This document shows, piece by piece, positions 34,504 to 52,523 of a DNA stretch of 64,000 nucleotides (position 1 is the stretch's first letter; the number at the start of each line of letters is the position of its first letter). The DNA comes from Alcaligenes faecalis (GTDB taxonomy: Bacteria > Pseudomonadota > Gammaproteobacteria > Burkholderiales > Burkholderiaceae_B). The notes under the pieces were generated by a model, which was given only the letters and a program-made list of their open reading frames with translations, searched no databases and was not told the origin of the DNA. The translations under genes were made by a program, and so were the position numbers. Location of the stretch: contig NZ_CP031747.1 in assembly GCF_005311025.1 (NCBI RefSeq), positions 2,292,954 through 2,356,953 on the forward strand, in the 5' to 3' direction.

Positions 34504-35379
34504 TTACTGCTTGGCACCGCCGAAGGCCATGTCTTTAGTGCCACCAGGGGTGTTGTAGTAAATACCAGCCAGCGCATCAGCGGCAGCGCCGTAGAACTGA
34601 CCGCGGATTTTGGAAGAATCGGCAAGATCTTGGGCGAAGGTACCGTTGGAGCTAATGGTTGTGCCATTGAAGAGTACGGTGCCGACCAAGCCTGTCAACG
34701 TACCTGAGCCGCCAGCGTAGTTAGCGGTCAGGGTACCTTTGGAGATACCAGCCTGGGTGCCGGGGTTGTATTGGTTGACACCTACAACGTCGTACTTGGC
34801 ATTGACCAGGTTAGGCATGGCTGTGGTTGGGTTTTCGCCGGTGTAGAACACCGTGCGGTCAGCATGGCTCAGGTTCAGATCCGTGCTGCTTGCTGGGGGT
34901 GTGCCGGCTATGCGGGGAGCCCACTCACCAAAATACACTTCCTGGCCGGAAACCTTGGCAACTACTTCGCCACCGAAGTGGGGGTAGCCTGGCAGAGGAT
35001 TGTTCAGTTGGCGATAGGCGTAAATTTGAGTGCCTGCTCCTACACCGCTGGTGATGGTATGGCGCCATGTTTCAGCAATGTTTGTTCCTAACGGCATTTG
35101 AATATATCCATTGCCATCAGAACCACCCAGCACTTGATTGGTTTGCCAAAGAGGACCGCTTTTGAAGCTCACCACTCCTGATTGTTTGGTGGCGTCATAA
35201 GGGTCAGTACCTGGCATGGAGATACCAGCTTCGCCCTGAGCCATCATCGTGGACGGCTTATCCGCCACTACAAATGCTTTCGAGGAGCCACCCGCGACGG
35301 GGGCAGCGAAGCTGCTGGCGGAGGCCAGCAGGAAAGCCGAAACAATAGCCAGTTTTTGTACATTCAGACTTGCTTTCAT
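34504..35379 (-). CDS. Secreted hemophilin-like (Slam-dependent) heme-binding protein
   Basis: This 291-residue protein has a cleavable signal peptide ending SSFA-AP and no lipobox Cys, so it is soluble. The N-terminal half includes VYFGEWAPR and DRTVFYTGEN. The C-terminal part has the eight-strand barrel pattern of the TbpB-like/hemophilin handle, with KGTLTANYAGG...GTLTG and the final GQFYGAAADALAGIYYN. This layout fits HphA-type haemophores exported by Slam. Its neighbours, a Slam and a large TonB receptor, complete the system. GGAG before the ATG at 35379 supports that start. Heme as ligand is inferred from the family. Confidence 0.78.
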   Translation of the reverse strand: MKASLNVQKLAIVSAFLLASASSFAAPVAGGSSKAFVVADKPSTMMAQGEAGISMPGTDPYDATKQSGVVSFKSGPLWQTNQVLGGSDGNGYIQMPLGTNIAETWRHTITSGVGAGTQIYAYRQLNNPLPGYPHFGGEVVAKVSGQEVYFGEWAPRIAGTPPASSTDLNLSHADRTVFYTGENPTTAMPNLVNAKYDVVGVNQYNPGTQAGISKGTLTANYAGGSGTLTGLVGTVLFNGTTISSNGTFAQDLADSSKIRGQFYGAAADALAGIYYNTPGGTKDMAFGGAKQ

Positions 35380-35443
35380 TACGAACTCCATTAAGTGAAG
35401 AAAAAGGGCGTTTTTACGAAAACGACCAAAAAAACCGATTAAC

Positions 35444-38400: not shown

Positions 38401-38629
38401 CGAATACATCGGTTTTGCCGGCCTCATCGCGGGTTTCACGTACGACGGTAATAGTGTCCAGACGAGTGGCTCTGTCCGTGTCTTCCCGGCTCTCGTCCTG
38501 ACGGAAGGAGGGTGGGGCGCTGCCCACGCTTTGGGCCTGTGTCTGCCCGGCCCAGGAGGCCAGAATCAAGGCATACACCAGCGGCTTGAGCGCGTGTTTT
38601 TTTGTGTAGGGTGAAAGGGTAGCGGACAT
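35444..38629 (-). CDS. Large TonB-dependent receptor, hemophilin-receptor (HphR)-like
   Basis: This 1061-residue outer-membrane receptor has a signal peptide ending QTQA, a TonB-box-like segment LDTITVV (about 60), a plug (about 85-200, with LDPNIRGIQGEGRIPLTIDGTEQ and SGIGGSVQIRTL) and a 22-strand barrel ending RVGMTARF. It is about 300 residues longer than usual siderophore receptors, owing to long extracellular loops, as in receptors that dock a protein ligand. It sits directly upstream of the hemophilin-like and Slam genes and has a Fur-like box in its promoter, so it probably takes heme from the secreted protein. Confidence 0.85.
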   Translation of the reverse strand: MSATLSPYTKKHALKPLVYALILASWAGQTQAQSVGSAPPSFRQDESREDTDRATRLDTITVVRETRDEAGKTDVFEKDVSNVYAGKEEIELYKGSSVGDLFKGLNGVYAGDSRNSGALDPNIRGIQGEGRIPLTIDGTEQATSVWLGPAGVANRNYVDPNMISSILVEKGVSATSGASGIGGSVQIRTLQVEDIVKPGETFGIELKAETATNSTKPNERAFGIFGKDYRDIPGATFHKGGTNGVVLPDNISPDRMPKVGNSGKNFNFEDHSYRLAIATQQENFDLLAAYSYRSRGNYYSGKKGSDKYENDTWQEDANSDYNPSYSFPRVSYIAKYYRPGEEVLNTSSELETTLLKGTLRLPHDQAIDMSYMRSNHTFGENVPWNVVWAIHALDGYGEKNILQTENPYSKVKQDTWNLNYSWNPEGSRFINLKAGAWITQSDSERHQNGDIIYGIQGQGLNNGRDGDWDNYTNCHVLGTNGSECAWVPPTAPEKLPNTDGRFNIVPRALQITDHRRSGLNISNAMTLHPTLDLGLFADFTREKLKQHDASEKLENLNELTWGVNHMGPRSGTRQQWNFGFNFDWRPVDWLQVNAGARYSDYWSYDDKLAEMRSQQHKDWAIQPALKGYNYQVQRLMSNQEVADYEGQIIEKTLPIYKQYEENWQFISDLDPSLLEAVFGHTSKKTFEEILGNTFHEGKINGYRYIEETVFVPSGESHKGFTANNPFTNGEIDSTEQVTDAQGQKGTVDKYIASISNRKPVYQDESEISNKWEEPKKQKDHAWVPHIGLTAFITDDIRLYARYNEFVRFPSLFESSMALAGGSKRSTGTANRPEHAYNWEIGYVHNLSSYFPSLEYADIKINYFNNRIKDYIDRDWDFNTVQFDEKKMSGIELQARVDSGKYFANFGGTYRLKQQLCDADYAQTFMPIPGAAGSDRIPACVDGGFPRTFARTSLQPQYSLNLDVGARLLEKKLLLGARAVYHSAAKNKDEGHFGGLGWAFNRTNYWNPILVFDAYASYQVQKNLNVDVAISNLTNQYYLDPMARTSMPAPGRTVRVGMTARF

Positions 38630-38749: not shown

Positions 38750-38768
38750 ATTAATGAGAATAGTTATC
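38750..38768. promoter_or_regulatory. Fur-box candidate upstream of the TonB receptor
   Basis: The 19 bases match the Fur consensus GATAATGATAATCATTATC at 14 positions (core TTAATGAGAATAGTTATC). It lies about 120 bases before the receptor start, and would make the receptor-hemophilin-Slam unit iron-repressed. Confidence 0.6.
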
Positions 38769-38945: not shown

Positions 38946-39926
38946 TTAGGCGCGCTTGTTGCCAAAAATGGATTTGGGCGAGCGGCCAAAGTAGCGCGTA
39001 AAGGCGACGGAAAAATTATTGGGGTATTTGTAGCCGACTTGCCAAGCGGTCTGGGCCACTTGTTGGCCGGACTCCAGCAAGGTATAGGCTTTGCGCATAC
39101 GCAGTTCAAGCAGCAGGCCGATAGGCGTGTTGTCGTACAGATAGCGAAAACCTTCTTTAAGTTTGTGCTCGTTAATGCCTACCGTCGTGGCCAGATACTC
39201 CACCGTGATTTGCTGGTCCAGTTGCGAGCTGAGCAAATCGCGTGCTCGCTCGACCCGTTGAATATCATCCACCGACAGCGGGGCGCTGTTGGGGGCGTCG
39301 GGTGGGGCCAGGCGGTTGAACTGCTCGGCCAGCAAGCTGAGTGCATGGATTTGCAGGTTCAGCCTGTGGTGATGAATGGGCTGCTCCGGGGTGCACGGCT
39401 GCATATAGCGTGCCAGTGCCGCCGCATGGGCCATGGTGGCCTGGCTGCTGGCATGAAAGGACAGACGGTGCAGTCCCACGCAATCCATCAACTGGGTGGC
39501 GCGTTCCGGGCCCACGTATTTGTTCAAGGCCGCCTCGCTGATGACCAGCCGTAATTGCGATACGGATTGGTCCTCTTGATAGTGGCGTTCCCCCCGCAGG
39601 GATCGAAAAGCCGTCACCGTGGTATGGCCTGCCTTGAACAGCAGATCTGAGCTCTCCCGACCCTGATAGGCCGACTGTCCTTGCAGACCCACCGTCACCA
39701 CAATGACACGGCCCGCGTGCGGGCCGTTGCTCTCTTCAACCAGCGATCGGCTGGGGTGATAGTGCAAGCGGCCCAACAAGAACCCTTGTTCCAGTTCCAC
39801 GCATTCGGAATAGCAGTGGCCCAGTTCTTCGGGTAGTTGCAGCCGGACTCGGCCATCGCTCAGAGCGCGGCATGACCTGGGTTCATCCGTGGTTAAGCGA
39901 TAGCCAAATTTGCGCGTGTTCATCAT
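38946..39926 (-). CDS. PchR-like AraC-family activator of metallophore genes
   Basis: This 326-residue protein has a long N-terminal sensor domain and the C-terminal AraC domain of the PchR/PdtC group: ITVEYLATTVGINEHKLKEGFRYLYDNTPIGLLLELRM and the final FSVAFTRYFGRSPKSI. Members bind a metal-siderophore complex and activate uptake and synthesis genes. It lies between the heme receptor unit and the thiocarboxylate cluster and is divergent from the latter with a Fur-like box between, so it is the best candidate for the positive regulator of that cluster. Confidence 0.85.
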   Translation of the reverse strand: MMNTRKFGYRLTTDEPRSCRALSDGRVRLQLPEELGHCYSECVELEQGFLLGRLHYHPSRSLVEESNGPHAGRVIVVTVGLQGQSAYQGRESSDLLFKAGHTTVTAFRSLRGERHYQEDQSVSQLRLVISEAALNKYVGPERATQLMDCVGLHRLSFHASSQATMAHAAALARYMQPCTPEQPIHHHRLNLQIHALSLLAEQFNRLAPPDAPNSAPLSVDDIQRVERARDLLSSQLDQQITVEYLATTVGINEHKLKEGFRYLYDNTPIGLLLELRMRKAYTLLESGQQVAQTAWQVGYKYPNNFSVAFTRYFGRSPKSIFGNKRA

Positions 39927-40001: not shown

Positions 40002-40068
40002 TATATATCATTTCTAGCTGTGATGGCAGAGGGAAGGGCCATTGTGGAATTCACGGAGGTAAAAAACA

Positions 40069-41133
40069 GTGCTGGATCGATCGCTAGGAGAAGTCGTTTT
40101 GTCGGAGCAATTGCTGGAGTCGCATGCTCTGCAAGCCTGTTGGGACGCGCAATTGGCGGGTTTAAGTGCAGATGCCTTGAACCTGGCTTTGGGGTATGGC
40201 GTGTTTGCGCATCTGGATCAGTTTATCGCTGCGGAGGAACTTGCGCTTGTGCTCAAGTGGGACGCCGACAACACCGCCTACCTGCTGGAGTTGCTGTGGA
40301 GTCTGGAGCTGCTGGAGTGTCAGTGGACCTGTCCGCGACGCTATCGCAGCCTGCCGCAAACGGCGCGTTATCTGAATCCGGGTTCGGCGCAATACTGTGG
40401 CGATGCCTTGCTGTTTCGGCATGGTGTCTTGCGTCAGGTGGGCAATCAGCTCGATGAGCTGCTGCGTAATGGCAAATCGCCTCCAGCGGATCCGGCATTG
40501 ATTCAGCAAGGCTGGGCAGCGGCGGCACGTTCACAAATTGCCCAGGAACAAACGGCGGTGACGGCCGAGGTGGCCTGTGAGATTTTTGGAGCCGTGCCGG
40601 AGTTCTGGCAGGCGCAACGTCTGCTGGATTTGGGTGGTGGGCCAGGACTGGTAGCCATCGCCTTGGCGCAACAGCAGCAGGACTTGAATGCCGTGGTGTT
40701 CGAGTACAAAGCGGCGGCTGCTGTCGCTCAGCAAAAAATTCTTGATGCGGGTCTGGAGGCCCGTGTCAGCACCTTGGCCGGTGATCTGCTGGTGGACGAT
40801 TTCGGGGCGGATTATGACCTGATCTGGTGCTCTTCCGTGCTGCATTTTGTACCGGATATTCCTGCTTTGCTGGCCCGTCTGTATCGCGCGCTGCGCCCCG
40901 GTGGGGTGCTGGTGTGCTGTCACGCCGAAGTGCATACCGAGGTCAGCAAGGCCAAACGGATTTTGCATTACTACCTGCATATGCGCATGCAAGGCCGCCA
41001 TGTGCTGCCGGAAGGGCAGTTGGCCCAGTTGCTGGAACAAGCCGGATTTGATGATGTTCAGCAGTTTGATGAGGTGCGCTTTCCGGTTGCGCCCGTCACT
41101 GCATTGATTGCGCGCAAGGCGTGCAAAGGGTGA
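40069..41133 (+). CDS. SAM-dependent methyltransferase (O-methyltransferase family 2-like)
   Basis: This 354-residue protein has an N-terminal helical dimerisation domain (about 1-155) and a Rossmann SAM domain with motif I LLDLGGGPGLVAIALAQ (about 184-200), an acidic residue after the second strand, and LIWCSSVLHFVPDIPALLARLYRALRPGGVLV. The start is a GTG with GGAGG at 40055-40059. It is the first gene on the plus side of the metallophore cluster and probably methylates an oxygen, sulfur or carboxyl group of the product or of an inactivated by-product. Similar methyltransferases occur in the pdt and qbs clusters. Confidence 0.85.
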   Translation: MLDRSLGEVVLSEQLLESHALQACWDAQLAGLSADALNLALGYGVFAHLDQFIAAEELALVLKWDADNTAYLLELLWSLELLECQWTCPRRYRSLPQTARYLNPGSAQYCGDALLFRHGVLRQVGNQLDELLRNGKSPPADPALIQQGWAAAARSQIAQEQTAVTAEVACEIFGAVPEFWQAQRLLDLGGGPGLVAIALAQQQQDLNAVVFEYKAAAAVAQQKILDAGLEARVSTLAGDLLVDDFGADYDLIWCSSVLHFVPDIPALLARLYRALRPGGVLVCCHAEVHTEVSKAKRILHYYLHMRMQGRHVLPEGQLAQLLEQAGFDDVQQFDEVRFPVAPVTALIARKACKG

Positions 41134-42374
41134 TGAGAATGAAGACGTGGAAAGCATGGGGGGCGCAACTGCTGTTTGGCTGGATGAATCTGGTGCTGGC
41201 TGTCCCCAGTATTTACCTGATGCTGGGTATGCCCCTGGTGATGCGACAGCATGGCTGGTCCGGCACCGAGATAGGTTTGTTCCAGCTGGCGGCCTTGCCC
41301 GCCATTTTCAAGCTGGTGCTGGCCATGCCGGTGCAGCGTGTCCGCCTGGGTGGCGGACATTTTGTGCATTGGCTGTGGTTGATGGCGGTCTTGTTGTTGG
41401 CTTTGTATGTAGGCATAGGCCGCGAGAATCTGATTGATCAGCGGACCCTGCTGTTTGCCCTGACCTTTGCCATCAGCATTGTGGCGACCTGGATGGACAT
41501 CCCCTTGAATGCCTTGGCGGTGCAATACCTGCCGCGTGACGAGCAGTTGCGTGCAGGCAGTATTCGTTCTGCCGCCTTGTTTCTGGGCGCGATCGTCGGG
41601 GCGGGGGTGATGGTGCTGGTGCAGGCCCGTTGGGGTTGGCAGGCACCGTTTGTCTTGATGGGCCTGGGGCTGGTGATTGGTTGTTTGCCCTTTGTCTTTT
41701 TGCGTTCCAAAGCCGGTTTGCAAGCGGCTGAGACTGAGCAGGCAACGCCCGGTTTTGTTGCCGATTGGGTCAGCTTCTTCGGGCAGGAAGGGGCCAAGCA
41801 GTGGACCAGCCTGCTACTGACCAGCTTCCCCTTTATTGGCGCTGTCTGGTTCTACTTGAAACCCTTGATGCTGGACCAGGGCATGCCTTTGGAAGAGGTG
41901 GCCTGGACGGTCGGGATTGCCGGTGGCATTACCGGTGCCGTGTTCAGCCTGATTGGCGGACGTTTGGCGTCATTTCTGGGTGCCGCGCGTGCCATTCCGA
42001 TTTATCTGCTGGCGGCCTTGCTGTCTCTGATTCTGTTGATGGTTTCCGTCTGGGCCAAGCTGGGGCCGGTGTGGCTGATCAGCAGCGCCCTGTTGATTGC
42101 GGCCAGCATGGGGGCTGTGTCCGCATTGCTTTTTGGGCTGACCATGTTCTTTACCCGTAGACAGCGCAATGCATCGGACTACGGTTTGCAGTCGACCATC
42201 TTCACCTTGGCCCGTATGGCCGTTCCCATTGTCGCCGGCATCGTGCTGGACCGTTTCGGTCAGGTTGTCATGCTGGGCGTGCTCACCTTGGGTGTTCTGT
42301 TCGCCTTTGTACTGGCTTGGCGCGTTCGCCACAGCGTCGGTGCCAGCACCGAAGTTTTGCTGCGTAGCCAGTAA
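41133..42374 (+). CDS. MFS permease, RhtX/FptX/AmpG-like
   Basis: This protein of about 413 residues has about 12 membrane segments and opens WGAQLLFGWMNLVLAVPSIYLMLGMPLVMR, in the style of the peptide-acetyl-CoA group that includes AmpG and the siderophore importers RhtX and FptX. The ATG at 41133 overlaps the methyltransferase stop (TGATG). Position in a metallophore cluster suggests import of the metal-loaded compound across the inner membrane, though export is possible. A strong terminator follows 13 bases after the stop. Confidence 0.82.
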   Translation: MRMKTWKAWGAQLLFGWMNLVLAVPSIYLMLGMPLVMRQHGWSGTEIGLFQLAALPAIFKLVLAMPVQRVRLGGGHFVHWLWLMAVLLLALYVGIGRENLIDQRTLLFALTFAISIVATWMDIPLNALAVQYLPRDEQLRAGSIRSAALFLGAIVGAGVMVLVQARWGWQAPFVLMGLGLVIGCLPFVFLRSKAGLQAAETEQATPGFVADWVSFFGQEGAKQWTSLLLTSFPFIGAVWFYLKPLMLDQGMPLEEVAWTVGIAGGITGAVFSLIGGRLASFLGAARAIPIYLLAALLSLILLMVSVWAKLGPVWLISSALLIAASMGAVSALLFGLTMFFTRRQRNASDYGLQSTIFTLARMAVPIVAGIVLDRFGQVVMLGVLTLGVLFAFVLAWRVRHSVGASTEVLLRSQ

Positions 42375-42387
42375 GTCAGGGTCTGAA

Positions 42388-42418
42388 AACGCCAGCGTGT
42401 GCAGGTTGCGCTGGCGTT
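42388..42418 (+). terminator. Rho-independent terminator inside the metallophore cluster
   Basis: AACGCCAGCG and CGCTGGCGTT form a perfect 10-bp stem with an 11-base loop, followed by CATCGTTTTTG. It separates the methyltransferase-MFS unit from the MoeZ unit. Confidence 0.8.
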
Positions 42419-42489
42419 CATCGTTTTTGCTCCGTTTCGCATAGAAATTAGAACCCAAAGGCTATTGTGTCATTTTCAGTCATATTTGA

Positions 42490-42510
42490 GAATAAGTCTT
42501 GTTCTTATTC
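42490..42510. promoter_or_regulatory. Palindrome in the MoeZ promoter region
   Basis: GAATAAG-N7-CTTATTC is a perfect inverted repeat 25 bases before the ATG at 42535, overlapping an AT-rich promoter-like stretch. It could bind the PchR-like regulator, Fur or another repressor. Confidence 0.45.
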
Positions 42511-42534
42511 ATATGTATTTAACCAGGAGTCATT

Positions 42535-43707
42535 ATGACCTTGCCCCCATTAGTTGAGCCCGGTGAGCCTTTAAGCCGCGAAGAGGTTAACCGTTATAGC
42601 CGTCACCTCTTGATTCCCAATGTGGGCATGGAAGGCCAGCGCCGCATCAAAAATGCCAAAGTGCTGGTTATCGGGGCAGGGGGGCTGGGTTCGCCCACCT
42701 TGCTGTACTTGGCCGCAGCCGGGGTGGGCACACTGGGCATCATCGACTTTGACCGGGTGGATGAATCCAATCTGCAGCGCCAGATCATTCACACCGTAGA
42801 CAGCATTGACGAGCTGAAAGTGGAAAGCGCCAAGCGTGCGATTCACAAGCTCAACCCCCATATCAAGGTAGAAACGTATACCGACAGGTTGGAACCTGAC
42901 ATGGCGGTCGAGCTGTTCTCGCGCTACGACCTGATTCTGGATGGCACCGACAACTTTGCGACCCGCTATCTGGTCAATGATGCGTGCATGCTGGCCGATA
43001 AACCCTATGTCTGGGGTTCGATCTTCCGCTTTGAAGGCCAGGTCGCGGTGTTCTGGGAAAACGCGCCCGGTGGCATAGGTTTGAACTACCGCGACCTGTA
43101 CCCCGAGCCCCCACCGCCCGAGCTGGCTCCGTCTTGCGCGCAGGGCGGTGTGTTTGGTGTCTTGTGCGCCTCGATTGCCTCCATCATGTCCACCGAAGCC
43201 ATCAAGCTGATTACCGGCATTGGCGATCCTTTGATCGGCCGCCTGATCGCTTATGACGCACTGGATATGTGCTACCGCGAACTGCCCATCCGCCGCCTGC
43301 CCAATCGCAAGCCCGTGACCGAGCTGGGCGATTACCAAACCTTCTGCGGCCTGAATCCACCGGCTGATGCCATGGCCATCCCCGTGCCTGTCATGACTGT
43401 GCTGGAGCTGAAAGAACGGCTGGACCAAGAGCAGGCCCCTGTCCTGGTGGACGTGCGCGATCCCAATGAATGGGAAATCGTGAATATTCCTGGCGCGATT
43501 CTGATGCCCAAATCGCCCACCGTCGCCGCCGAGATTCTGGCTGCCTTTGGTCCGAATGCGGATCTGGTGATTTCGTGCCGCTCCGGTGCGCGTTCCAGGA
43601 CCGTGTGCGAAGAGCTGATCAAGTTGAAGGCCCCCAAGGTGCGCAATCTGGAAGGCGGCGTGCTGGCTTGGGTGGAGCAGGTCGCTCCCGAATTGGCGTC
43701 TTACTAA
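42535..43707 (+). CDS. MoeZ/MoeB-like E1 activating enzyme with rhodanese domain
   Basis: This 390-residue protein activates the C-terminal Gly-Gly of a ubiquitin-like carrier by adenylation and then transfers sulfur to it. The E1 domain (about 15-260) has the ATP site VIGAGGLGSPTLLYLAAAGVG, DFDRVDESNLQRQ and the Cys-containing SCAQGGVFGVL. The zinc Cys pairs of E. coli MoeB are absent (NYRDLYPEP replaces CxxC), as in MoeZ. The C-terminal rhodanese domain (about 280-385) has the active-site loop SCRSGARS. It is followed by JAMM and MoaD-like genes, the PdtF/QbsC arrangement. Confidence 0.92.
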   Translation: MTLPPLVEPGEPLSREEVNRYSRHLLIPNVGMEGQRRIKNAKVLVIGAGGLGSPTLLYLAAAGVGTLGIIDFDRVDESNLQRQIIHTVDSIDELKVESAKRAIHKLNPHIKVETYTDRLEPDMAVELFSRYDLILDGTDNFATRYLVNDACMLADKPYVWGSIFRFEGQVAVFWENAPGGIGLNYRDLYPEPPPPELAPSCAQGGVFGVLCASIASIMSTEAIKLITGIGDPLIGRLIAYDALDMCYRELPIRRLPNRKPVTELGDYQTFCGLNPPADAMAIPVPVMTVLELKERLDQEQAPVLVDVRDPNEWEIVNIPGAILMPKSPTVAAEILAAFGPNADLVISCRSGARSRTVCEELIKLKAPKVRNLEGGVLAWVEQVAPELASY

Positions 43708-43726
43708 GTTCGGGAGGAAGCACATC

Positions 43727-44134
43727 ATGGCCTTGCAGATTCGTCGTTCTGCTCTGGAGCAAGTTCTGAATCATGCCAAGCAGGATCACCCCATTGAGGC
43801 ATGCGGACTGATTGCCGCCCAGGAGGGCTCGCTGGTGGCCGAACGCGTGCTGCCCATGCAAAACCGGGCGGCCTCGGAGGTGTTTTATCAGTTCGATTCG
43901 CGCGAGCAATTTCAGGTCTACCGCCGTCTGGATGAGGACGATCAGGAGTGCTGCGTGATCTATCACTCTCATACCGCCAGCCAGGCTTTCCCGAGCAAGG
44001 ATGACATTGATTTTGCGGGCCATCCCGAACTGCATTACTTGATCGTGTCCACCTGGGATCAGGCCACCGTGCCGGTTCGATCCTTCCGGATTATCGACGG
44101 CGGTGTGACCGAAGAAACCATCGTGATTGTCTAG
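43727..44134 (+). CDS. JAMM/MPN+ metalloprotease (PdtG/QbsD/Mec+-like)
   Basis: This 135-residue protein is a minimal prokaryotic JAMM isopeptidase. The zinc motif is complete: Glu in PIEACGLIA (about 24) and HSHTASQAFPSKDDID, which fits the HxH-x7-S-x2-D pattern. In thioquinolobactin synthesis the corresponding enzyme trims the C-terminus of the sulfur carrier. The carrier encoded next door already ends in Gly-Gly, so here the protease may free the carrier from an adduct. It lies 19 bases after the MoeZ gene. Confidence 0.92.
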   Translation: MALQIRRSALEQVLNHAKQDHPIEACGLIAAQEGSLVAERVLPMQNRAASEVFYQFDSREQFQVYRRLDEDDQECCVIYHSHTASQAFPSKDDIDFAGHPELHYLIVSTWDQATVPVRSFRIIDGGVTEETIVIV

Positions 44135-44207
44135 GGAGCAGCGTCGCTCCCCCAAGGGGGCGTGCGTCCCGGCTGTTGGAAACCACTATTTCAAAGGAGT
44201 TTTAAAC

Positions 44208-44480
44208 ATGTCCATTTCAGTCTCTATCCCGACCTTGCTGCGTCCACTGACGAACGGCGAGAAGAAAGTCCAGGCCCAGGGCGCTTCGGTAGGCGAAGTG
44301 ATCGAGCATCTTGAAGGCCAGTTTCCCGGCATCAAGGTGCGCCTGATGAGCGGCGAAGACCTGCACCGTTTCGTGAACATTTACGTGAACGAAGAGGACA
44401 TCCGTTTCAGCGATGGTCTGAAAACCGCCACCCGCGCTGGCGACAGCCTGACCGTACTGCCTGCCGTAGCAGGGGGCTAA
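44208..44480 (+). CDS. MoaD/ThiS-like ubiquitin-fold sulfur carrier
   Basis: This 90-residue beta-grasp protein ends LPAVAGG, with the Gly-Gly that is adenylated and converted to a thiocarboxylate. The ATG at 44208 follows AAGGAG; an upstream in-frame start would add 27 unlikely residues. It sits between the JAMM and CaiB-like genes. It should donate sulfur to an activated acyl group in making a thiocarboxylic acid, as PdtH and QbsE do. Confidence 0.92.
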   Translation: MSISVSIPTLLRPLTNGEKKVQAQGASVGEVIEHLEGQFPGIKVRLMSGEDLHRFVNIYVNEEDIRFSDGLKTATRAGDSLTVLPAVAGG

Positions 44481-44563
44481 GACCATCTGGTCTGGATTTT
44501 CATGGTGCAAGTGCTGGTTTCTGCAATCAGCACTTGGCGTGCGCATCACTCTGGTTTGGAACT

Positions 44564-46381
44564 ATGTCTGAATTACTACATGGCTGCGGATTACGTTGGC
44601 AGATGGGCTCACAGCCCCCGTATTGGCCGGGCTTGCCTGCTGCCTTGAGCCGTCAGGCTCGATTGCTGGGTTTATCTGAACAAGGACAATCCGCAGGCCA
44701 TCAAGACGAAGCAGCATTCAGCCTGTATTCGCCTGATTTTGGAACGATTAGCACGCATCTGGAAACCGAGGCGGGCGGCATGACGCAAGCCGCGATCAGC
44801 GAGCTGAGCATGCAGGCTGCCAGCGGTATCTTGTCCGTGCATGGACGCTCCAGTGGGCTTTCGGGCACGCTGGGCCTGGATTATCTGGCCGTGCTCAGTT
44901 CAGCCATGACCCTGCAAGCGACCTTGGCGGCGGCCTTGGGCCAATTGCGCGGCGGGCGTTTCTCTACGGTGTCGGTTTCGCCCTTGGGCTGCGGCCTGCT
45001 CAGTATCGGGCAGTATCTGGCCGGGGCAACGGCGGCTCAAGATCCCGAACAGTTATTGGCGGGTAGTTACGATCCCGGCTTGCGGCCCCCCTTTGTTTCG
45101 CAAGACGGCGTGGTCTTTGAACTGGAAACCTTGGACCCGCGACCCTGGCGCGCCTTTTGGGAAGCAGTGGGCGTACCGGCCGATCTGGCCGGTCAGGCCT
45201 GGAAAGCATTTCTGCTGCGCTATGCCAAAGCGGTGTGCCCCATGCCCGCGGCGTGTTTAAGTAGTCTGCAAGCCCTGAACTTTGCCCGTTTACAGGAACT
45301 GGCCTTGCAGACCGGCATGGCCATCTTGCCGGTACGTACACCGGCTCAACGCCAGAGCGATAGTGATTACGCGGCCTTGGCCGGTCTGTGGCAGCATCAG
45401 ATTCATGCCGCGCCCGGCTCATTGAGCACCTTGCCGTCCAAGGCCGATTTGCCCCTGCGTGGTTTGCGGGTGGTGGAGTCCTGCCGTCGGATTCAAGGGC
45501 CTATTGCCGGTCACTTGCTGGCGCTGCTGGGGGCGGAGGTGATTCGTCTGGAACCGCCCGGTGGCGATCCCTTGCGCGCCATGCCGCCGTGCGTGGATGG
45601 CTGCTCGGTGCGCTTTGATGCGCTTAATCAATTCAAGACGGTGCAGGAAGTGGACATCAAATCGGCTCAAGGCCGCCAGGCCATTTACGAGCTGGTGAGC
45701 GAGTCCGATGTGTTTCTGCATAACTGGGCGCCGGGCAAGGCGGCCGAGCTGCAACTGGATGCCCAGGACTTGCACGCGGTGCGCCCGGATCTGGTCTACG
45801 CCTATGCGGGCGGTTGGGGTCAGGAGCAAGTGGACGCGCCGGGGACGGACTTCACGGTGCAAGCCTGGTCGGGTATTGCTCACACCATTTCTCAAACCTC
45901 GGATGCACGGGGCGGGTCGTTGTTTACGGTGCTGGATGTGCTGGGCGGGGTGATGGCCGCGCTGGGTATCAGTGCCGCCTTGCTGCGCCGGGGCCTGAGC
46001 GGGTCGGGCTTGCGGGTAGACAGCTCCTTGTTGGCCACGGCCGATCATCTGGCCCAGGCCGTTTCTCCCATCAGTAAAACTGGCGTGTCGGCGGTGTTCC
46101 AGACGGGCGAGGGCTTCATCGTCATCGACTGCCAGGATCAAACGCATCTGCATGCCCTGGCCGGGTGGCTGAATGTGTCGCCCGATGCTGTCTGGACGGT
46201 CTTGCCGGATCGTCTTCTGTCCCAGTCTGCCCGTAGCCTGGAAACGCAACTGGATGTGCTGGGCATACCGGCCCGCCGCGTCCATAGCAATCTGGCGCAA
46301 CTGCGTGCTGATCCATGCCTGGCGTCCCATTTCCATGACAAGGGCTATTCGTCTGTTAATTCTCCCTGGAGGTTTTTATGA
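44564..46381 (+). CDS. Two-part CaiB/BaiF-type CoA-transferase family protein
   Basis: This 605-residue protein is longer than usual family III CoA-transferases (about 400). The C-terminal part (about 300-605) is a recognisable CaiB/BaiF domain with LRGLRVVESCRRIQGPIAGHLLALLGAEVIRLEPPGGDP, NWAPGK and DAPGTDFTVQAWSG, where the Asp matches the catalytic position. The N-terminal part (about 1-250) looks like a second, diverged copy. It probably moves or holds an acyl-CoA or acyl thioester for the cluster. The gene overlaps the AMP-ligase gene by four bases. Confidence 0.82.
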   Translation: MSELLHGCGLRWQMGSQPPYWPGLPAALSRQARLLGLSEQGQSAGHQDEAAFSLYSPDFGTISTHLETEAGGMTQAAISELSMQAASGILSVHGRSSGLSGTLGLDYLAVLSSAMTLQATLAAALGQLRGGRFSTVSVSPLGCGLLSIGQYLAGATAAQDPEQLLAGSYDPGLRPPFVSQDGVVFELETLDPRPWRAFWEAVGVPADLAGQAWKAFLLRYAKAVCPMPAACLSSLQALNFARLQELALQTGMAILPVRTPAQRQSDSDYAALAGLWQHQIHAAPGSLSTLPSKADLPLRGLRVVESCRRIQGPIAGHLLALLGAEVIRLEPPGGDPLRAMPPCVDGCSVRFDALNQFKTVQEVDIKSAQGRQAIYELVSESDVFLHNWAPGKAAELQLDAQDLHAVRPDLVYAYAGGWGQEQVDAPGTDFTVQAWSGIAHTISQTSDARGGSLFTVLDVLGGVMAALGISAALLRRGLSGSGLRVDSSLLATADHLAQAVSPISKTGVSAVFQTGEGFIVIDCQDQTHLHALAGWLNVSPDAVWTVLPDRLLSQSARSLETQLDVLGIPARRVHSNLAQLRADPCLASHFHDKGYSSVNSPWRFL

Positions 46382-48039
46382 ATCACGCTGGCATCATCGA
46401 TCTGGTCCCTGCGTCATTGCGCCAACGCTGGATAGAGGACGGTACCTACCCGAACAAGCCGGTCTTTACGCTGTTCGCGGAAAAAGCCCAGGCTCATCCG
46501 GACAAACTGGCGGTGCTCTCGCCGCAAGGCAATATCAGCTATAGCGCCTTGATGGACGCGGCTCTGCGTCTGGCAGGCAGCTTGCGTCGGGCAGGGATTA
46601 TGGCGGGAGACGTGGTGGCGTATCAGCTCAGCAACCATTGGGTGTGCTGCGCCATTGACCTGGCCGCCGCGGCTTTGGGGGCGATTGTTGCGCCTTTCCC
46701 ACCCGGACGGGGCAAGCTGGATATTCAGTCGCTGGTGCGTCGTTGCGATGCACGGGCGGTGATTGTGCCGCATGAATATGCAGGCATTGATTTGTGCGAA
46801 GTGATCGAGTCCTTGCGACCTACGCTGTTGTCCTTACGTGTCCTGATTGTGCAAGGCCCATCGCGTCCGGGCTGGATGACTTTGGATTCCCTGTTCGAGG
46901 GCGAACCCCTGGCCTTGTCCGAATTGCCGGTGGTGTCTCCCAATTCGCCAGTGCGTTTGCTGGTGTCTTCGGGCACCGAGTCCGAGCCCAAGCTGGTGGC
47001 CTATTCGCATAATGCGCTGGTGGGTGGGCGGGGCCGATTCCTGCAACGCATTTCCCCTAATGATGTGGAGTTCCGGGGCATGTATCTGGTGCCGCTGGGT
47101 TCTTCATTTGGCTCTACGGCCACCTTCGGTGTGCTGTGCTGGTTGGGGGGTTCTTTGGTGGTCTTGCCCAAGTTTGATGTGCCTAGCGCGATTGCCGCCA
47201 TCAATGCCTTCAAACCCAGCTTTATTTTGGGCGTGCCCACCATGTTCCAGCGTATTGCGGCAGCGCCTGAGCTGGAGAAGGCCGATAAAGCCAGCTTGCG
47301 CGGCTTGATTGTGGGTGGTTCAGTGATTGATGAAGCCACGGTGCGTCGTTGCGTGGAAGCGTTTGATTGCGGCTTTATCAGTCTGTACGGTTCGGCCGAT
47401 GGGGTGAACTGCCACAACACGCTGGACGATCCCATCGACGTGGTCTTGAGCAGTGTGGGGACCCCTAATCCGCAAGTGTGCGAGATCCGCCTGATTGATG
47501 ACGAGGGTGCCGAAGTGCCGCAAGGCGAGGTAGGCGAAATTACCGCTCGTGGTCCCTTGAGCCCCATGCAATATGTGAACGCCCCGGAATTGGATGCCCA
47601 GTATCGGGACGAACAGGGTTGGGTGAAAACGGGCGATCTGGGTTACATCAATGCCCAAGGGCAGTTGGTACTGGCGGGTCGCAAGAAAGACATCATCATT
47701 CGTGGTGGCGCGAACATCAGCCCGGTGCAAATTGAAGGCCTGGTCATGGCTCACCCGGATGTAGTCACTGTGGCTTGCGTGCCGGTTCCCGACGCGGATC
47801 TGGGCCAGCGTATTTGCTTGTGCGTGACGGTGCGTGAAGGCGTGCCACGTTTCTCCCTGAAAGAGATTACCGACTTCTTGCGTGAGCAGGGTCTCGAAGT
47901 GAACAAGCTGCCGGAGTATCTGCGCTTTTACCGCAGCCTGCCGCTGACGCCTGCAGGCAAGATCGACAAGCGCGCCTTGGCTGCTGATGCTGCTGCATTG
48001 GGCTCTGGGGCCAAGACTGCAGCGGGGATAGCAGCATGA
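46378..48039 (+). CDS. AMP-forming acyl/aryl-acid ligase
   Basis: This 553-residue member of the acyl-adenylate family has the P-loop LLVSSGTESEPKLVAYSH (about 202-219), the motif WVKTGDLGYI, the hinge GRKKDIIIRGGANISP and the catalytic Lys in PLTPAGKIDKRAL. It would adenylate a carboxylic acid such as a pyridine or quinoline carboxylate so that sulfur from the carrier can replace AMP. PdtJ and QbsL perform the corresponding step in their pathways. Both ends overlap neighbouring genes by four bases. Confidence 0.88.
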   Translation: MNHAGIIDLVPASLRQRWIEDGTYPNKPVFTLFAEKAQAHPDKLAVLSPQGNISYSALMDAALRLAGSLRRAGIMAGDVVAYQLSNHWVCCAIDLAAAALGAIVAPFPPGRGKLDIQSLVRRCDARAVIVPHEYAGIDLCEVIESLRPTLLSLRVLIVQGPSRPGWMTLDSLFEGEPLALSELPVVSPNSPVRLLVSSGTESEPKLVAYSHNALVGGRGRFLQRISPNDVEFRGMYLVPLGSSFGSTATFGVLCWLGGSLVVLPKFDVPSAIAAINAFKPSFILGVPTMFQRIAAAPELEKADKASLRGLIVGGSVIDEATVRRCVEAFDCGFISLYGSADGVNCHNTLDDPIDVVLSSVGTPNPQVCEIRLIDDEGAEVPQGEVGEITARGPLSPMQYVNAPELDAQYRDEQGWVKTGDLGYINAQGQLVLAGRKKDIIIRGGANISPVQIEGLVMAHPDVVTVACVPVPDADLGQRICLCVTVREGVPRFSLKEITDFLREQGLEVNKLPEYLRFYRSLPLTPAGKIDKRALAADAAALGSGAKTAAGIAA

Positions 48040-49229
48040 ATCACCTTGCCATTTCCAGCGCGGCCTTGAGCCGCAAGCTGCGGCAGTTTGTGGATACCGA
48101 GATCATCCCCAACGAGGGCATTCTGGCCCAGGGGGATAATCTGGCCCGCGAGCTGACTCTGGACCTGACACGTCGTGCTCAACAGGCGGGTTTGTTCGGC
48201 AGTTTCTACCCCATGCATCGTGGTGGTCGGATCGCCAGTTTGGTCGAATACTTGCCTGTGGCTGAACAGGAAGGGCGCTCCGAATATGGTCCCGGCATTT
48301 TCGGGGCAGATGCCACGCTGGATGCGTATATGTTGAGCCATCATGGCTCGGCCAGCGTCAAACAGCGCTTTCTGACGCCCTTGCTCAAGGGGGATGCAGT
48401 GTCCAGCTATGCCATGTCCGAGCCGGACAGCATTGGTTCGATTCCGGCCACCATGCAATGTCAGGCTCGCCTGAAAGACGGGCAATGGCATGTGAATGGC
48501 CGCAAGTGGTTTATTTGTCGGGCGCAACAGGCCAGCTTCGCGACCGTGGTGGCGCGCAGCGCGGACGGCCCCGTGAATGAGTCCTTGTCCATGGTGATCG
48601 TGCCCACGGATGCGGCGGGCTTTAAAGTTGTGCGCCCCTTGCCCTTGCTGGGGCGTTATCAGGGGCAGAACGAGCTGCTGTTCAACAATGTGACCGTGCC
48701 GGAGGACTATGTTCTGGGTAGCGCCGGGCAGGGCATTGCCCTGATGCAAAAGCGCCTGGCCTTGGGGCGTATCTTGCGATCCGTGCAATGGCTGGGCTTG
48801 GCGCAACGCAGCTTTGAAATCATGTGCGAGCGCATTCACTCGGAGCGCGGAGAACTGGCCCGTCTGGCGGACAAGCAACTGGTTCGGGCGCGGGTCTATC
48901 AGGTGTACCGGGCCATTACCTCGGCCCGTTGCTTGCTGCGTGAAGCGGCTGTCAAGTTCGACGCGGGTTTGCCCAATGCGGTGGAGGTGAATGTGGCCAA
49001 GCTGGCGGCGTCGGATGCGGTCAGCGAGGCGGCAGATTCCGCTATCCAGATCATGGGGGCCGAAGGGCTGGCGGATTGGAGTCCCTTGTCTGGCATCTAC
49101 CGGGCAGCACGTACCACGCATATTCTGGATGGGGCGGACGACGCCTTGATCAGTACCGTTGGCAAGCACTTGCTGCAAGCCCACTACGCCACACAAGAGA
49201 TGGCAGATATGAACAAGGCAGTCGCATGA
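48036..49229 (+). CDS. Acyl-CoA dehydrogenase-family flavoprotein
   Basis: This 397-residue protein has the acyl-CoA dehydrogenase fold: helical N-terminal domain with ADATLDAYMLSHHGS, the middle beta-domain with YAMSEPDSIGSIPATMQCQARL and WHVNGRKWFICRA, and the C-terminal helices ending MGAEGLADWSPLSGIYRAARTTHILDG. In this cluster it may oxidise or aromatise the ring of the product precursor, for instance a dihydropyridine. That step is inferred. The stop overlaps the MFS start. Confidence 0.88.
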   Translation: MNHLAISSAALSRKLRQFVDTEIIPNEGILAQGDNLARELTLDLTRRAQQAGLFGSFYPMHRGGRIASLVEYLPVAEQEGRSEYGPGIFGADATLDAYMLSHHGSASVKQRFLTPLLKGDAVSSYAMSEPDSIGSIPATMQCQARLKDGQWHVNGRKWFICRAQQASFATVVARSADGPVNESLSMVIVPTDAAGFKVVRPLPLLGRYQGQNELLFNNVTVPEDYVLGSAGQGIALMQKRLALGRILRSVQWLGLAQRSFEIMCERIHSERGELARLADKQLVRARVYQVYRAITSARCLLREAAVKFDAGLPNAVEVNVAKLAASDAVSEAADSAIQIMGAEGLADWSPLSGIYRAARTTHILDGADDALISTVGKHLLQAHYATQEMADMNKAVA

Positions 49230-50416
49230 TGCTATCGACACGGGCAAGTCGTTCACCCTGGGTGCTGGCCAGTTTGATGACTCTGGCGATGGGCATGCCC
49301 ATGATGGTGTTTTACGCCATCGGCGTGCTGGGTCCGCAAATCATTCAGGATCTGGGCATCTCGCGCGAGCAACTGGGGTGGTTAACCACCAGCACCTTTG
49401 GGCTGGCTGCCTTGCTTTCGCCGTGGGCGGGGGCCTTGGTGCAGCGCATGGGCAATCGGCACGGTTTGTTTTTGCTGTTCCTGCTGGTGGCCATGTCCTT
49501 TAGCCTGATTGCGGTGTTGCCGGGTTTCTGGGGTGTGCTGACGGCCTTGCTCTTGTGCGGCCTGGCGCAGTCCTTGGCCAACCCGGTGACCAATCAGGTC
49601 ATTGCCCAGTTGGTACCGGCAGAGCGCAAGGCGGGGCTGGTTGGTATCAAGCAGTCCGGCGTGCAGGCTTCGGCCTTGCTGGCCGGTCTGGTCCTACCCA
49701 CCCTGGCCTACAAATTGGGGTGGCGGGGGGCGTTTGTGGTGTGGGTACCGGCCATGCTGTGCCTGTCCTACTTTGCCCTGCAGCTTTTGCCAGCCAGAGC
49801 CAGCACCGCAGCCGGCAGCATGTCCTGGCGCTTGCCATGGCCCAGCCAACAACTTTGGCTGTTAATGGCCATTCAGCTGTGCGCGGGTCTGGTGCTGTCG
49901 TCCTTCATCACTTTTCTGGGCGTATTTGCGCAGCAACTGGGCGTGTCGCCGTACTGGATAGGGATGCTGGTCAGTGGCTTTGGGGTGATGGGGATTGTGT
50001 CTCGAGTGCTCTTGACGCCTATCGCTGCCCGCTTTGGGGATGAAACCTTGTTGCTGGGCATCCTGTTTGTCATCCCGATTGTGGCCTTGTTGCTGATGAT
50101 GATGGCCGCGCCGGACAGGCTCTGGCCCCTGGGAGCCGGGGTGTTGGCCATTGGCCTGACCCTGGTTGCCACCAATGCCATTGCCATGAGCATGTTGCTG
50201 CGGGATGCCCGTTTTGGGGCGCCGGCTCGTACCGCAGGGCTGTTGTCCGTCGGGTTCTTTGGCGGCTTTGCCTTTGGTCCGCCACTGTTTGGTGTGCTGC
50301 TGCGCTCGCCCGAAGGCTTTGCCGCTGCCTGGCCTTTCCTGATGGGTATTCTGGTATGCGCCAGCTTGTTGTGCCTGATTTTGTACCAGGTTCGTCGCAT
50401 GGCGAAAGGGGAATGA
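49226..50416 (+). CDS. MFS transporter of the metallophore cluster
   Basis: This protein of about 396 residues has about 12 membrane segments, with GPQIIQDLGISREQLGWLTTSTFGLAALLSPWAGALVQRMGNR at the N-terminus in the CynX/NarK-like style. The ATGATG at 49226 overlaps the previous stop. It follows biosynthetic genes directly, so it is a good candidate for the exporter of the finished compound, complementing the putative importer at 41133. Confidence 0.82.
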   Translation: MMLSTRASRSPWVLASLMTLAMGMPMMVFYAIGVLGPQIIQDLGISREQLGWLTTSTFGLAALLSPWAGALVQRMGNRHGLFLLFLLVAMSFSLIAVLPGFWGVLTALLLCGLAQSLANPVTNQVIAQLVPAERKAGLVGIKQSGVQASALLAGLVLPTLAYKLGWRGAFVVWVPAMLCLSYFALQLLPARASTAAGSMSWRLPWPSQQLWLLMAIQLCAGLVLSSFITFLGVFAQQLGVSPYWIGMLVSGFGVMGIVSRVLLTPIAARFGDETLLLGILFVIPIVALLLMMMAAPDRLWPLGAGVLAIGLTLVATNAIAMSMLLRDARFGAPARTAGLLSVGFFGGFAFGPPLFGVLLRSPEGFAAAWPFLMGILVCASLLCLILYQVRRMAKGE

Positions 50417-50420
50417 TGGA

Positions 50421-51430
50421 ATGTCTGTAGAGGTATTGGGATCAGCCAGCATCGAGTCCATTTTTGCGAATATGGACCAGGTTGCAGAACAATGTGGAGA
50501 GCAGTTTCCCTTGTTCAGACAGTCCTCGTCCGAGCAATGGACCTTGTCGCGACGTGGCTCCTGGTTAGGGGGCTTCTGGGCGGGCTTGTGGTGGCGACGC
50601 GCCCTGATCAGCGGTCAGGAGCAGGATAGGGAGCAGGCGCTGAACTGGAGTCAGAAGCTGCAAGTCTGGCTGGAAGAGCCCAGCATCAATCGAAGCTTTG
50701 TGTTCTGGTATGGCTCCGGCCTGGGCAGCATCTGGCATGGGGATAGAGAGGCCGAAGCCCATGTCGATCAGGCTGCTGATGCCTCCAGTATTTCTGGCCT
50801 TGGGTTCCAGGATGGGGCGAGGCGGGCAATCACATGGTGAATGTGGTCTCTGGCTCCACGCTTTTAGTGCTGGATGCGCAGGGTGGGCCGGTGGCGCGTC
50901 AGTTTGGGCAATGGCATGTGGATGCCTGCCTGCGTTATCTGCAAAAACGCAGCGGAGCCTGGCGCGATACGGTCTTGTTGCGCGGGAATGATGTGTTGGC
51001 CGAGCTGGGCGCTGAAACCTGGCAACGAGGGCAGGCTTGGGCCATGTTGGGCATGGCAACCGCAACGCGCTTGTATGACAGAAAGTCCTATGCTCAAGCA
51101 GCCCTGAATGCCTGCCGATATTGGCACGAGCGTTGGGGGAGATTTGCGCATGGCTTTTTGACACAGGAGTCCCCACTAAGTCCGGTAGACCGTTCAGCCT
51201 GGGCGATTGCTTCTTTGGCTATGTATGAGCTGTCGCAGATTCTGCCGGAACAACAATGGCTGCACGAGCAATCGCGCTTGTATCTGGATGCCTTGCTGAC
51301 CCCTGAGTTAAGTGAAACAGGGCGTTTTGTGGGACATCTTTACAAAGTTGCGCCGGGGCAGTCTGAACTGGTGGAATCGGCCTGCGCCAGCTTCTTTTTG
51401 CTGGAGGCTTTGTTGGCGCATTCGGCTTGA
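50421..51430 (+). pseudogene. Frameshifted six-hairpin glycosidase-like gene
   Basis: Two frames encode one protein. The first (50421-50840) has LSRRGSWLGGFWAGLWWRRAL and SFVFWYGSGLGSIWHGD, resembling the (alpha/alpha)6 barrel of unsaturated glucuronyl hydrolases. The second frame, which starts about 50822, has GNHMVNVVSG, WQRGQAWAMLGMATATRLYD and PVDRSAWAIASLAMYELS, the rest of the same fold. One base is missing near the G runs at 50813-50827. Joined, it would be about 336 residues. It could be a true null allele, a sequencing error or a programmed shift. Its role in the metallophore cluster is unknown. Confidence 0.7.
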
Positions 51431-51457
51431 AGATAGGCCATAGACAGCTTGCTTGCT

Positions 51458-51477: not shown

Positions 51478-51567
51478 GCGGCTCTATCGGTATGATGTGC
51501 GCTTGAGTGTTCTTGATGGCCTTTCAATGCAGGAAAGCATCAAACACAAGGAGCGGGTTTTCATCCT

Positions 51568-52514: not shown

Positions 52515-52523
52515 AATTCTCCT

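Follow-up and report, generated by a model that had tools for sequence, protein, structure and literature searches.

Gene content of the locus

The window, the whole stretch of DNA analyzed here, comprises 64,000 nucleotides of the Alcaligenes faecalis contig NZ_CP031747.1 (assembly GCF_005311025.1, positions 2,292,954 to 2,356,953 of the forward strand), part of a 4.2-Mb single-contig genome, and contains a gene cluster related to the Pseudomonas pdt clusters for pyridine-2,6-dithiocarboxylate (PDTC), adjoined by divergently oriented genes for a TonB-dependent receptor, a hemophilin-like protein (HphA-like), and a Slam secretion pore (Table 1). The genes from the methyltransferase (MT) through the second of two MFS transporters (MFS2), together with a split GH88-like gene (U), form one dense run on the + strand (40069-51430), and the G+C content is 58-63% over 43000-51000 vs. 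46-57% in the flanking kilobases (30000-40000, 51000-58000). A preliminary description of this run had listed genes for a MoeZ-rhodanese, a JAMM protease, a MoaD/ThiS carrier, a CaiB-like protein, an AMP ligase, an acyl-CoA dehydrogenase (ACAD), and two MFS proteins, with a methyltransferase and a PchR-like regulator upstream; Pfam matches confirmed every one of these, and the boundary drawn there is too short on the left, as the TonB receptor, hemophilin-like, and Slam genes (32902-38629) belong to the locus. Several open reading frame (ORF) starts as originally listed more likely lie too far upstream, and those of the carrier, CaiB, MFS1, and MFS2 genes were corrected by reading frame and overlap, working from the translations.

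Table 1. Genes and sites of the locus, with positions in the window and the evidence for each assignment.
Feature	Position	Strand	Evidence or remark
Slam / SlipAM outer-membrane secretion pore, N-terminal TPR	32902..34389	-	Pfam SlipAM 4e-38, TPR_Slam 3e-22
Hemophilin-like (HphA/TbpB-barrel) protein, "HphA-like"	34504..35391	-	Signal-peptide-like start, no lipobox seen; PDB and Pfam
TonB-dependent receptor, 1061 aa, heme-receptor-like (HasR/PhuR kin)	35444..38629	-	Pfam Plug and barrel
Fur-box-like site, between AraC and TonB genes	38750..38768	.	5 mismatches to 19-base consensus
AraC-family regulator, probable PdtC counterpart	38946..39926	-	HTH_18
SAM methyltransferase (MT), O-methyltransferase dimerisation domain	40069..41133	+	Methyltransf_23, Methyltransf_2
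MFS1, probable inner-membrane importer (PdtE-like)	41133..42374 (ORF listed from 41121)	+	MFS_1
MoeZ, E1-like adenylyltransferase + rhodanese (PdtF/QbsC type)	42535..43707	+	ThiF 2.5e-77, Rhodanese 1.1e-13
JAMM metalloprotease (PdtG/QbsD type)	43727..44134	+	Prok-JAB 8e-23
ThiS/MoaD-like sulfur carrier (PdtH/QbsE type), 90 aa	44208..44480 (ORF listed from 44127)	+	ThiS 8e-16
Two-domain type III CoA-transferase CaiB (PdtI/QbsK/PtmU4 type)	44564..46381 (ORF listed from 44534)	+	CoA_transf_3 6e-61, two stretches
AMP-forming acid ligase (PdtJ/QbsL/PtmA3 type)	46378..48039	+	AMP-binding 7e-56
Acyl-CoA dehydrogenase (ACAD), ACAD11-like	48036..49229	+	Pfam; catalytic-Asp column retained
MFS2, probable exporter	49226..50416 (ORF listed from 49076)	+	MFS_1
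Split GH88/UGL-like gene U, half 1	50421..50840	+	Single 346-aa ORF in L025
Split GH88/UGL-like gene U, half 2	50834..51430	+	Homology to L025 ORF

The order MoeZ-JAMM-carrier-CaiB-ligase-ACAD was seen again in loci of Pseudomonas, Advenella, Ralstonia, Acidovorax, Nitrosospira, and Methylobacter, and its recurrence in six other genera argues that it did not arise by chance. Catalytic signatures, judged at alignment columns at least 95% conserved, are intact in the JAMM protein (E24, H80, H82, D93), the MoeZ rhodanese (C348), CaiB (D439), and the ACAD (D365), and the carrier ends in a bare Gly-Gly. MFS1 has a weak match to the RhtX/FptX siderophore permeases (37 bits vs. a cut-off of 356) and occupies the permease slot of the Pseudomonas clusters.

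A pdt-type thiocarboxylate cluster

Loci for comparison were recruited via CaiB peptide patterns or the ligase, so that these two genes are present by construction and clusters unlike them were missed; 66 distinct loci (L numbers; genomes are given as G numbers) remained after four duplicates were dropped, L041 and L077 being two contigs of one metagenome-assembled genome that may hold a single cluster and are counted as two of the 66. Relatives were called at E ≤ 1e-20 and 60% cover, with laxer E values for JAMM and the carrier. Distribution counts cover only the genomes drawn or loci fetched, and absence of a gene refers to the stretch that was fetched, except where a search of the whole genome is mentioned. 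The comparison with pdt used Pseudomonas pdt-type clusters and the published F113 gene list, the sequences of P. stutzeri KC, DSM 3601, and F113 standing outside it.

By sequence comparison the cluster is pdt-type (PDTC-like), not qbs-type. Its carrier, E1 protein with rhodanese, JAB peptidase, CaiB-like protein, and AMP ligase occur together, as in the pdt/qbs-type thiocarboxylate siderophore operons entered as row 4a of Iyer et al. 2006 (PMC1779556), and the ACAD, MFS2, MFS1, and AraC genes of the strict pdt gene set all accompany this core. The ligase is 66-80% identical to Pseudomonas pdt-type ligases (80% to the closest) vs. 43% to that of L068, and Pseudomonas MF4836 (G570) encodes two ligases, one 74% identical to that of the window and the 43% one in L068. 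In a ligase tree of 64 rows, from which L031 was omitted as a near copy of L030, the clade that holds the window (13 rows, 99/99) is made up of Alcaligenes, Advenella, and five Pseudomonas clusters, while L068 sits on a very long branch of unsure placement. L068 has the core, MT, MFS1, AraC, and a K-like receptor and has no ACAD, MFS2, or U; its carrier ends GGCF, with a CF cap after Gly-Gly as in QbsE, and from the cap and gene set the locus was taken as qbs-like. The gene sets, ligase identities, and ligase tree thus agree with the earlier proposal of a thiocarboxylate-forming, pdt-like metallophore cluster. The converse outcome named there, in which the ligase and CaiB would have matched some unrelated degradation pathway best, was not observed, and such a pathway was ruled out as CaiB, ligase, and ACAD co-occur with the sulfur-transfer genes in 50 of the 66 loci.

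In Pseudomonas the genes usually run in the order regulator, TonB receptor, MT, MFS1, X, Y, MoeZ, JAMM, carrier, CaiB, ligase, ACAD, MFS2, U, where X and Y denote a PigD/PigE-like pair. The pdt cluster of F113 is listed as pdtCKPELMFGHIJON, PSF113_2605-2618, giving 13 letters for 14 loci (PMC3570484, PMC7415375); in our own mapping K, P, E, L, M, O, and N correspond to the receptor, MT, MFS1, X, Y, ACAD, and MFS2, with U left unlettered, because gene number and order in F113 then fit the Pseudomonas order.

A CaiB search of 200 genomes of the family recovered, besides the own genome, full-length relatives in six Alcaligenes (89-97%) and two Advenella (54%), so that CaiB is present in seven of the ten Alcaligenes genomes examined, the own genome counted. 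Two CaiB peptide patterns picked out 46 loci, which belong to Alcaligenes, Advenella, Pseudomonas, Ralstonia, Acidovorax, nitrifiers, methanotrophs, actinobacteria, and others, and the ligase was found at E ≤ 1e-100 in 18 of 398 Pseudomonas genomes. A search of 369 genomes drawn from the class yielded no match at 1e-45 except the own genome, and a plasmid search returned two partial matches only. Relatives among the 66 loci numbered 64 for the ligase, 64 for CaiB, 60 for ACAD, 58 for MFS2, 50 each for MoeZ, JAMM, and the carrier, and 49 for U; 11 of the 14 actinobacterial loci had MFS2, U (some partial), ACAD, and CaiB with no MoeZ, JAMM, or carrier nearby. CaiB-ligase-ACAD-MFS2-U is the most widely shared part. 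In 12 nitrifier/methanotroph clusters (L038, L042-L044, L046, L049-L053, L055, L072), an alginate-export-type porin gene lies between MFS2 and U.

A hemophilin-like/Slam module in the receptor position

Behind the AraC gene, where Pseudomonas clusters may carry a classical receptor, the window has adjacent genes for a Slam pore, a hemophilin-like protein, and a TonB receptor, the arrangement of hemophilin/Slam systems. The HphA-like protein matches hemophilins in the PDB (8glo at 6e-12, 7re4 at 4e-10) and Pfam HphA_C (32.4 bits, cut-off 31), and the receptor matches 9oaa, HasR, and PhuR in the PDB and scores 211 bits against the TIGR01785 hemin receptor model (cut-off 317). TonB-HphA behind AraC was present in the window and its six Alcaligenes relatives, whose fetched stretches end within the Slam gene. 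Three Pseudomonas genomes in which the biosynthesis genes are present (G698, G579, G900) have TonB-HphA-Slam after AraC in the same divergent layout, with identities to the window of 47-51% for TonB, 56-58% for HphA-like, and 53-54% for Slam, the Slam homologue occupying the same place in L113, L114, and L116. In six Pseudomonas (L115, L117-L121), these being the others whose flank was fetched, and in two Advenella, it is the classical receptor K that stands beside AraC or MT; K has 660-680 aa and is split in two in L118. No PdtK-type TonB receptor was found in the window or the six Alcaligenes stretches, and a search of the own genome for K at E ≤ 1e-20, run without a positive control, gave no match.

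Relatives of the HphA-like profile occur in 10 of the 398 Pseudomonas genomes at E ≤ 1e-6. In G891, G573, and G883, Slam-HphA-TonB-AraC stands next to MT-MFS1 with no MoeZ, JAMM, carrier, CaiB, ligase, ACAD, MFS2, U, X, or Y in the 20 kb seen, and none of the three belongs to the 18 genomes that gave a ligase match at 1e-100; their loci look like uptake-only versions. More distant copies (35-43%) in G585, G748, and a second site in G698 have no AraC-MT-MFS1. In a midpoint-rooted TonB tree of 18 rows, the seven Alcaligenes receptors (100/100) and eight Pseudomonas receptors (86/89) form one 15-row clade (100/100), outside of which the three distant copies fall; 13 members of the clade adjoin AraC-MT-MFS1, and the genomes of the other two have a K-type pdt cluster. 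In the ligase tree, module-bearing rows appear in two places with K-bearing rows between them (G825, Advenella; the receptor of G960 was unseen), which implies either that receptors were exchanged more than once or that an ancestor had both.

The AraC regulator is 61-64% identical to those of L097-L100 and L113-L116 and 46-48% to those of L117-L121. Scored against a 19-base Fur consensus, the site between the AraC and TonB genes was equaled by five of 1000 resampled sequences; a weaker site in the AraC-MT gap was equaled by 80 of 1000, and the MFS1-MoeZ gap contained no Fur-like site (558 of 1000 equally good).

Heme is bound by Acinetobacter baumannii HphA via H43 and H106 (PMC8560813), which by offset (our own working) correspond to 33 and 96 in the numbering of the 7re4 chain. 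Residue 96 falls opposite Tyr136 in the protein of the window, and this heme-ligand column holds His in the four solved hemophilin-type sequences, of five compared, that cover it and Tyr or Phe in the remaining clade members. Across the 15 HphA-like proteins of the clade, no alignment column is His throughout, so the known heme ligand is missing; His111 and His138 are retained only in the seven Alcaligenes proteins. An AlphaFold2 model of the window protein built from three sequences reached a pLDDT of 28.

Proposed role of the module and the case for heme uptake

We incline, without strong conviction, to the view that this pdt-type locus makes, exports, senses, and re-imports a small thiocarboxylate metallophore, the uptake route having been switched to the hemophilin-like/TonB/Slam module. 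The metallophore would most likely be of the pyridine type. MoeZ would adenylate the Gly-Gly end of the carrier and its rhodanese domain would supply the sulfur, as is known for the family and as the catalytic residues seen here would permit. The AMP ligase may activate a precursor acid that the two-domain CaiB passes on, and the carrier thiocarboxylate would turn the activated acid into a thiocarboxylic acid, as is known for the thioacid cassette; the JAMM protein would act on the carrier, cutting a carrier-product or misformed adduct, while the ACAD and, where intact, the GH88-like protein may prepare or aromatize the ring. MFS2 would export the product. Gene linkage further suggests that the Slam-secreted hemophilin-like protein captures the metal complex and delivers it to the TonB receptor, that MFS1 carries it over the inner membrane, that AraC senses it, and that the methyltransferase modifies or disarms the imported thioacid. 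The sequences directly show which genes are present, their order and linkage, the catalytic residues, and the carrier ends, and the product class, the transporter directions, and the roles of the JAMM protein, MT, ACAD, U, and the hemophilin module are inferred from them. In favor of the proposal count the gene set and order shared with Pseudomonas and Advenella, the ligase clade, the position of the module behind AraC with and without the biosynthesis genes, the co-occurrence of HphA-like and ligase matches, the lack of a common His and of a K match in the own genome, and the Fur-like site before the TonB gene. No secreted, Slam-dependent binding protein is known to be needed for siderophore re-import.

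More tentatively, and with less than even confidence, we propose that the hemophilin-type protein, Slam pore, and TonB receptor have been re-aimed from heme to a metal-thiocarboxylate complex, that this unit moves with the regulator, methyltransferase, and permease, with or without the biosynthesis genes, and that JAMM cuts an adduct rather than a cap.

Several observations weigh against these proposals. The nearest solved kin of both the TonB receptor and the HphA-like protein are heme-uptake proteins, and two Pseudomonas (G570 and G870; L164, L165) carry the module away from their K-type cluster, so the module can stand alone. The distant, unlinked copies (L169-L171) also have no His in the ligand column; ligand loss is therefore not peculiar to the cluster-linked copies and was ruled out as proof of metallophore binding. 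The co-occurrence of HphA-like and ligase matches (10 and 18, respectively) in five of 398 Pseudomonas genomes speaks for a link, but its P of 2.3e-5 ignores relatedness. Among ten Alcaligenes genomes, module and cluster are jointly present in seven and jointly absent in three; the three cluster-less genomes have neither the second AraC gene nor the leuA copy of the flank (best match 54-55%), and clade and linkage are consequently not separable there. Finally, the GH88-like gene is broken in this genome.

An empty-site comparison in the three cluster-less genomes was ruled out, as the flanking leuA copy and second AraC gene are missing too. This leuA-type gene (55788-57560, +) encodes a second 2-isopropylmalate synthase, 55% identical to the other copy in the genome and missing in the three cluster-less Alcaligenes.

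In a competing explanation, to which we give substantial though not majority credence, TonB/HphA/Slam would serve ordinary heme uptake and have the regulator in common with the cluster or simply co-travel with it, with the metallophore entering via another receptor or staying outside. The kinship to HasR, PhuR, and the hemophilins fits it directly, as does the setting of the lone L164 copy between a solute-binding-protein gene and an RNase-R-like gene; the uptake-only L168 copy adjoins a similar RNase-R gene, and from these two neighborhoods the module has its own chromosomal site in Pseudomonas. Heme uptake alone, however, accounts poorly for the same divergent AraC-MT-MFS1 layout in Alcaligenes and in six of the eight Pseudomonas copies of the clade, for the location of the remaining two in genomes with a K-type pdt cluster, for a clade without a common His, and for the absence of a K match in the own genome. 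No heme oxygenase was found among the neighboring ORFs scanned.

The PigD/PigE-like pair and the identity of the product

The pair X-Y, which by gene order we read as PdtL/PdtM, lies inside the pdt-type clusters of Pseudomonas and Advenella (L105 2540-7509 and orthologues); X scores 669 bits against the NCBIfam PigD model (cut-off 950) and Y 1430 bits against PigE (cut-off 850). It stands between MFS1 and MoeZ in 15 of the 18 ligase-bearing Pseudomonas clusters; of the other three, G816 (L102) shows Y without X, at the opposite side of the cluster, and in G568 and G645 (L039, L112) X, Y, MT, MFS1, and U are all missing and the receptor is of another type. Neither X, Y, nor K was found in the window or the six Alcaligenes stretches, and X had no match in ten Alcaligenes genomes, in a search run without a positive control; Y was not searched genome-wide. 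As the two Advenella and the five Pseudomonas that fall in the ligase clade of the window all have the pair, its loss in Alcaligenes is the simplest reading.

With the pair and the classical receptor missing and U broken, PDTC itself is only a possible product. That the cluster makes another thiocarboxylate is a serious alternative that we would nonetheless not expect to prevail: without the PigD/PigE-like pair, the acid precursor in Alcaligenes may differ, and the 160 bases that separate MFS1 and MoeZ in the window, where the ligase-clade Advenella and Pseudomonas all keep the pair, agree with this. On the other side, the ligase of the window has the same A3-A5 motifs as those of other clusters, whether or not these have the pair, and the qbs-like ligase has different ones, a pattern that speaks for a single common acid. 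A marine Streptomyces has, moreover, yielded PDTC (PMC7374359), no pair match having been found in the Streptomyces loci seen. In F113 cultures, PDTC derivatives were detected and PDTC itself was not, as reported in PMC7415375.

Carrier ends and the JAMM protease

Among the 50 fetched loci with a carrier, 38 have one that ends exactly in Gly-Gly and 12 one with extra residues, while a JAMM gene with the HxH...D motif is present in all 50; the window is a further bare Gly-Gly case beside these. Since JAMM is kept where 38 of 50 carriers have no cap, cap trimming cannot be its sole job. CysO and Mec+ provide a precedent for the cutting of a carrier adduct, and the missing cap makes it more likely in our analysis that JAMM cuts a carrier-product or misformed carrier adduct. 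Trimming has been shown for QbsD, according to PMC6006322, where no thioacid was formed once the JAMM gene was lost and capped carriers were favored by the authors, and Iyer et al. 2006 (PMC1779556) called the question of what JAMM cuts "more mysterious." In Nitrosospira multiformis (L051 9689-11902), the carrier and CaiB-like protein form one ORF, with Gly-Gly running directly into the CaiB part; if that sequence is right, the fusion would be a natural JAMM substrate.

Methyltransferase, ACAD, and the broken GH88-like gene

Of 57 ligase-bearing maps, 15 have MT together with MFS1 and 38 have neither, and the remaining four are not true splits, as L035 and L099 do have MFS1, hidden in the map by an overlapping ORF, and L037 and L074 start at MFS1. 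MT is also kept in the uptake-only loci and for this reason probably acts on the imported compound. The ACAD is ACAD11-like and retains the Asp that differs between 8v3u and 8v3v.

U is a single 346-aa ORF in the related locus L025; compared with it, the window has 31 bases fewer between the two homologous halves, indicating a shifted frame. Its family profile matches the unsaturated glucuronyl hydrolase UGL (2ahf) at 3e-27 over most of the profile, and its model (SORT26; 23 sequences) reached a pLDDT of 91. In the 23 aligned sequences, the column of D149 is invariant and that of D88 is an invariant Arg; D88 and D149 are the two catalytic Asp of GH88, and with the Arg U is not an ordinary GH88. 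As the GH88 substrate and dihydrodipicolinate both have a double bond beside a carboxyl-bearing ring atom, our guess would be that U performs a hydration or dehydration step on a pyridine precursor.

The split at 50421-51430 could mean that the cluster is decaying in this strain and yields no mature product. We regard this as unlikely, as the remaining reading frames of the run are uninterrupted and six of their products retain the catalytic columns that were checked; no U was found in the stretch seen of L039, L040, L045, L048, L057, or L112, so U may be dispensable. Weaker still, a thioquinolobactin-type (qbs) cluster is highly improbable, since the core F-G-H-I-J, methyltransferase, MFS1, and AraC shared with L068, which also has a K-type receptor, are outweighed by the 43% ligase, the bare Gly-Gly carrier, and the ACAD, MFS2, and U that L068 is without, all of which disfavor a quinoline product. 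The preliminary description had argued against a quinoline from the missing kynurenine-pathway genes; no xanthurenate/kynurenine genes were indeed found among the Pfam matches of genes at 32902-52029, and the argument is weaker than stated, as a tryptophan 2,3-dioxygenase is encoded elsewhere in the genome (G000:C1:1079174-1079983).

Neighboring genes

To the right of the cluster, a small ATPase gene (53817-54365, +; Pfam Zeta_toxin, 42.6 bits, cut-off 22.3) is 95-100% conserved in five Alcaligenes relatives and reduced to a 21-residue remnant in L027. Some kilobases left of the Slam gene, a CopC-CopD fusion and a DUF1775 gene form a copper-handling pair (27833-30039, -).

Significance

Our results suggest that the type of cluster is already known and that the hemophilin-like/Slam module in the receptor position is what is new. 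No paper on this Alcaligenes cluster was found among the matches listed from the open-access literature, subscription papers being outside the search, and "thiocarboxylic" and "hemophore" appeared together there only in a general review; the A. faecalis Mc250 genome paper (PMC7643998), in the part that deals with such genes, names enterobactin-type genes and antiSMASH clusters and not a thiocarboxylate cluster. Should a thiocarboxylate metallophore prove to be what the module imports, the hemophilin fold would be a wider device for small-molecule capture, a protein carrier for a small-molecule metallophore would represent a new recovery route, and heme-like receptor annotations near metallophore clusters would need a second look. 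The retention of JAMM with uncapped carriers makes the question of its substrate directly testable, and a methyltransferase kept with uptake genes where biosynthesis is missing hints at a step that handles or disarms the thioacid.

Comparison with known systems

The closest likeness is to the pdt clusters of Pseudomonas putida and P. kilonensis (fluorescens) F113, with which the locus shares AraC, MT, MFS1, MoeZ, JAMM, carrier, CaiB, ligase, ACAD, and MFS2, arranged as in the Pseudomonas pdt-type clusters examined, as well as a GH88-like gene that is intact in relatives; it differs in having no PigD/PigE-like pair and no adjoining K-type receptor, in its TonB/HphA-like/Slam module, and in the broken U. 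The qbs cluster for thioquinolobactin of P. fluorescens ATCC 17400, compared via L068 only, shares the core, methyltransferase, MFS1, and AraC but has a GGCF-capped carrier, a distant ligase and CaiB (38-43%), and no ACAD, MFS2, or U. The thioplatensimycin cassette (PtmA3/PtmU4) likewise pairs an AMP ligase with a two-domain CaiB to form a thioacid (PMC6006322), whereas its sulfur-carrier genes lie outside the cluster and its product is an antibiotic, not a metallophore. U resembles the unsaturated glucuronyl hydrolases of GH88 in its profile match and invariant D149 column and departs from them in the Arg at D88. The HphA/HphR/HsmA heme-uptake system of A. baumannii and the hrp locus of Xenorhabdus combine a TonB receptor, a soluble hemophilin-like protein, and Slam, as the window does (PMC8560813, PMC8406197); the window departs from both in the Tyr/Phe at the His ligand column and in the AraC-MT-MFS1 genes of a thiocarboxylate cluster that adjoin the module.

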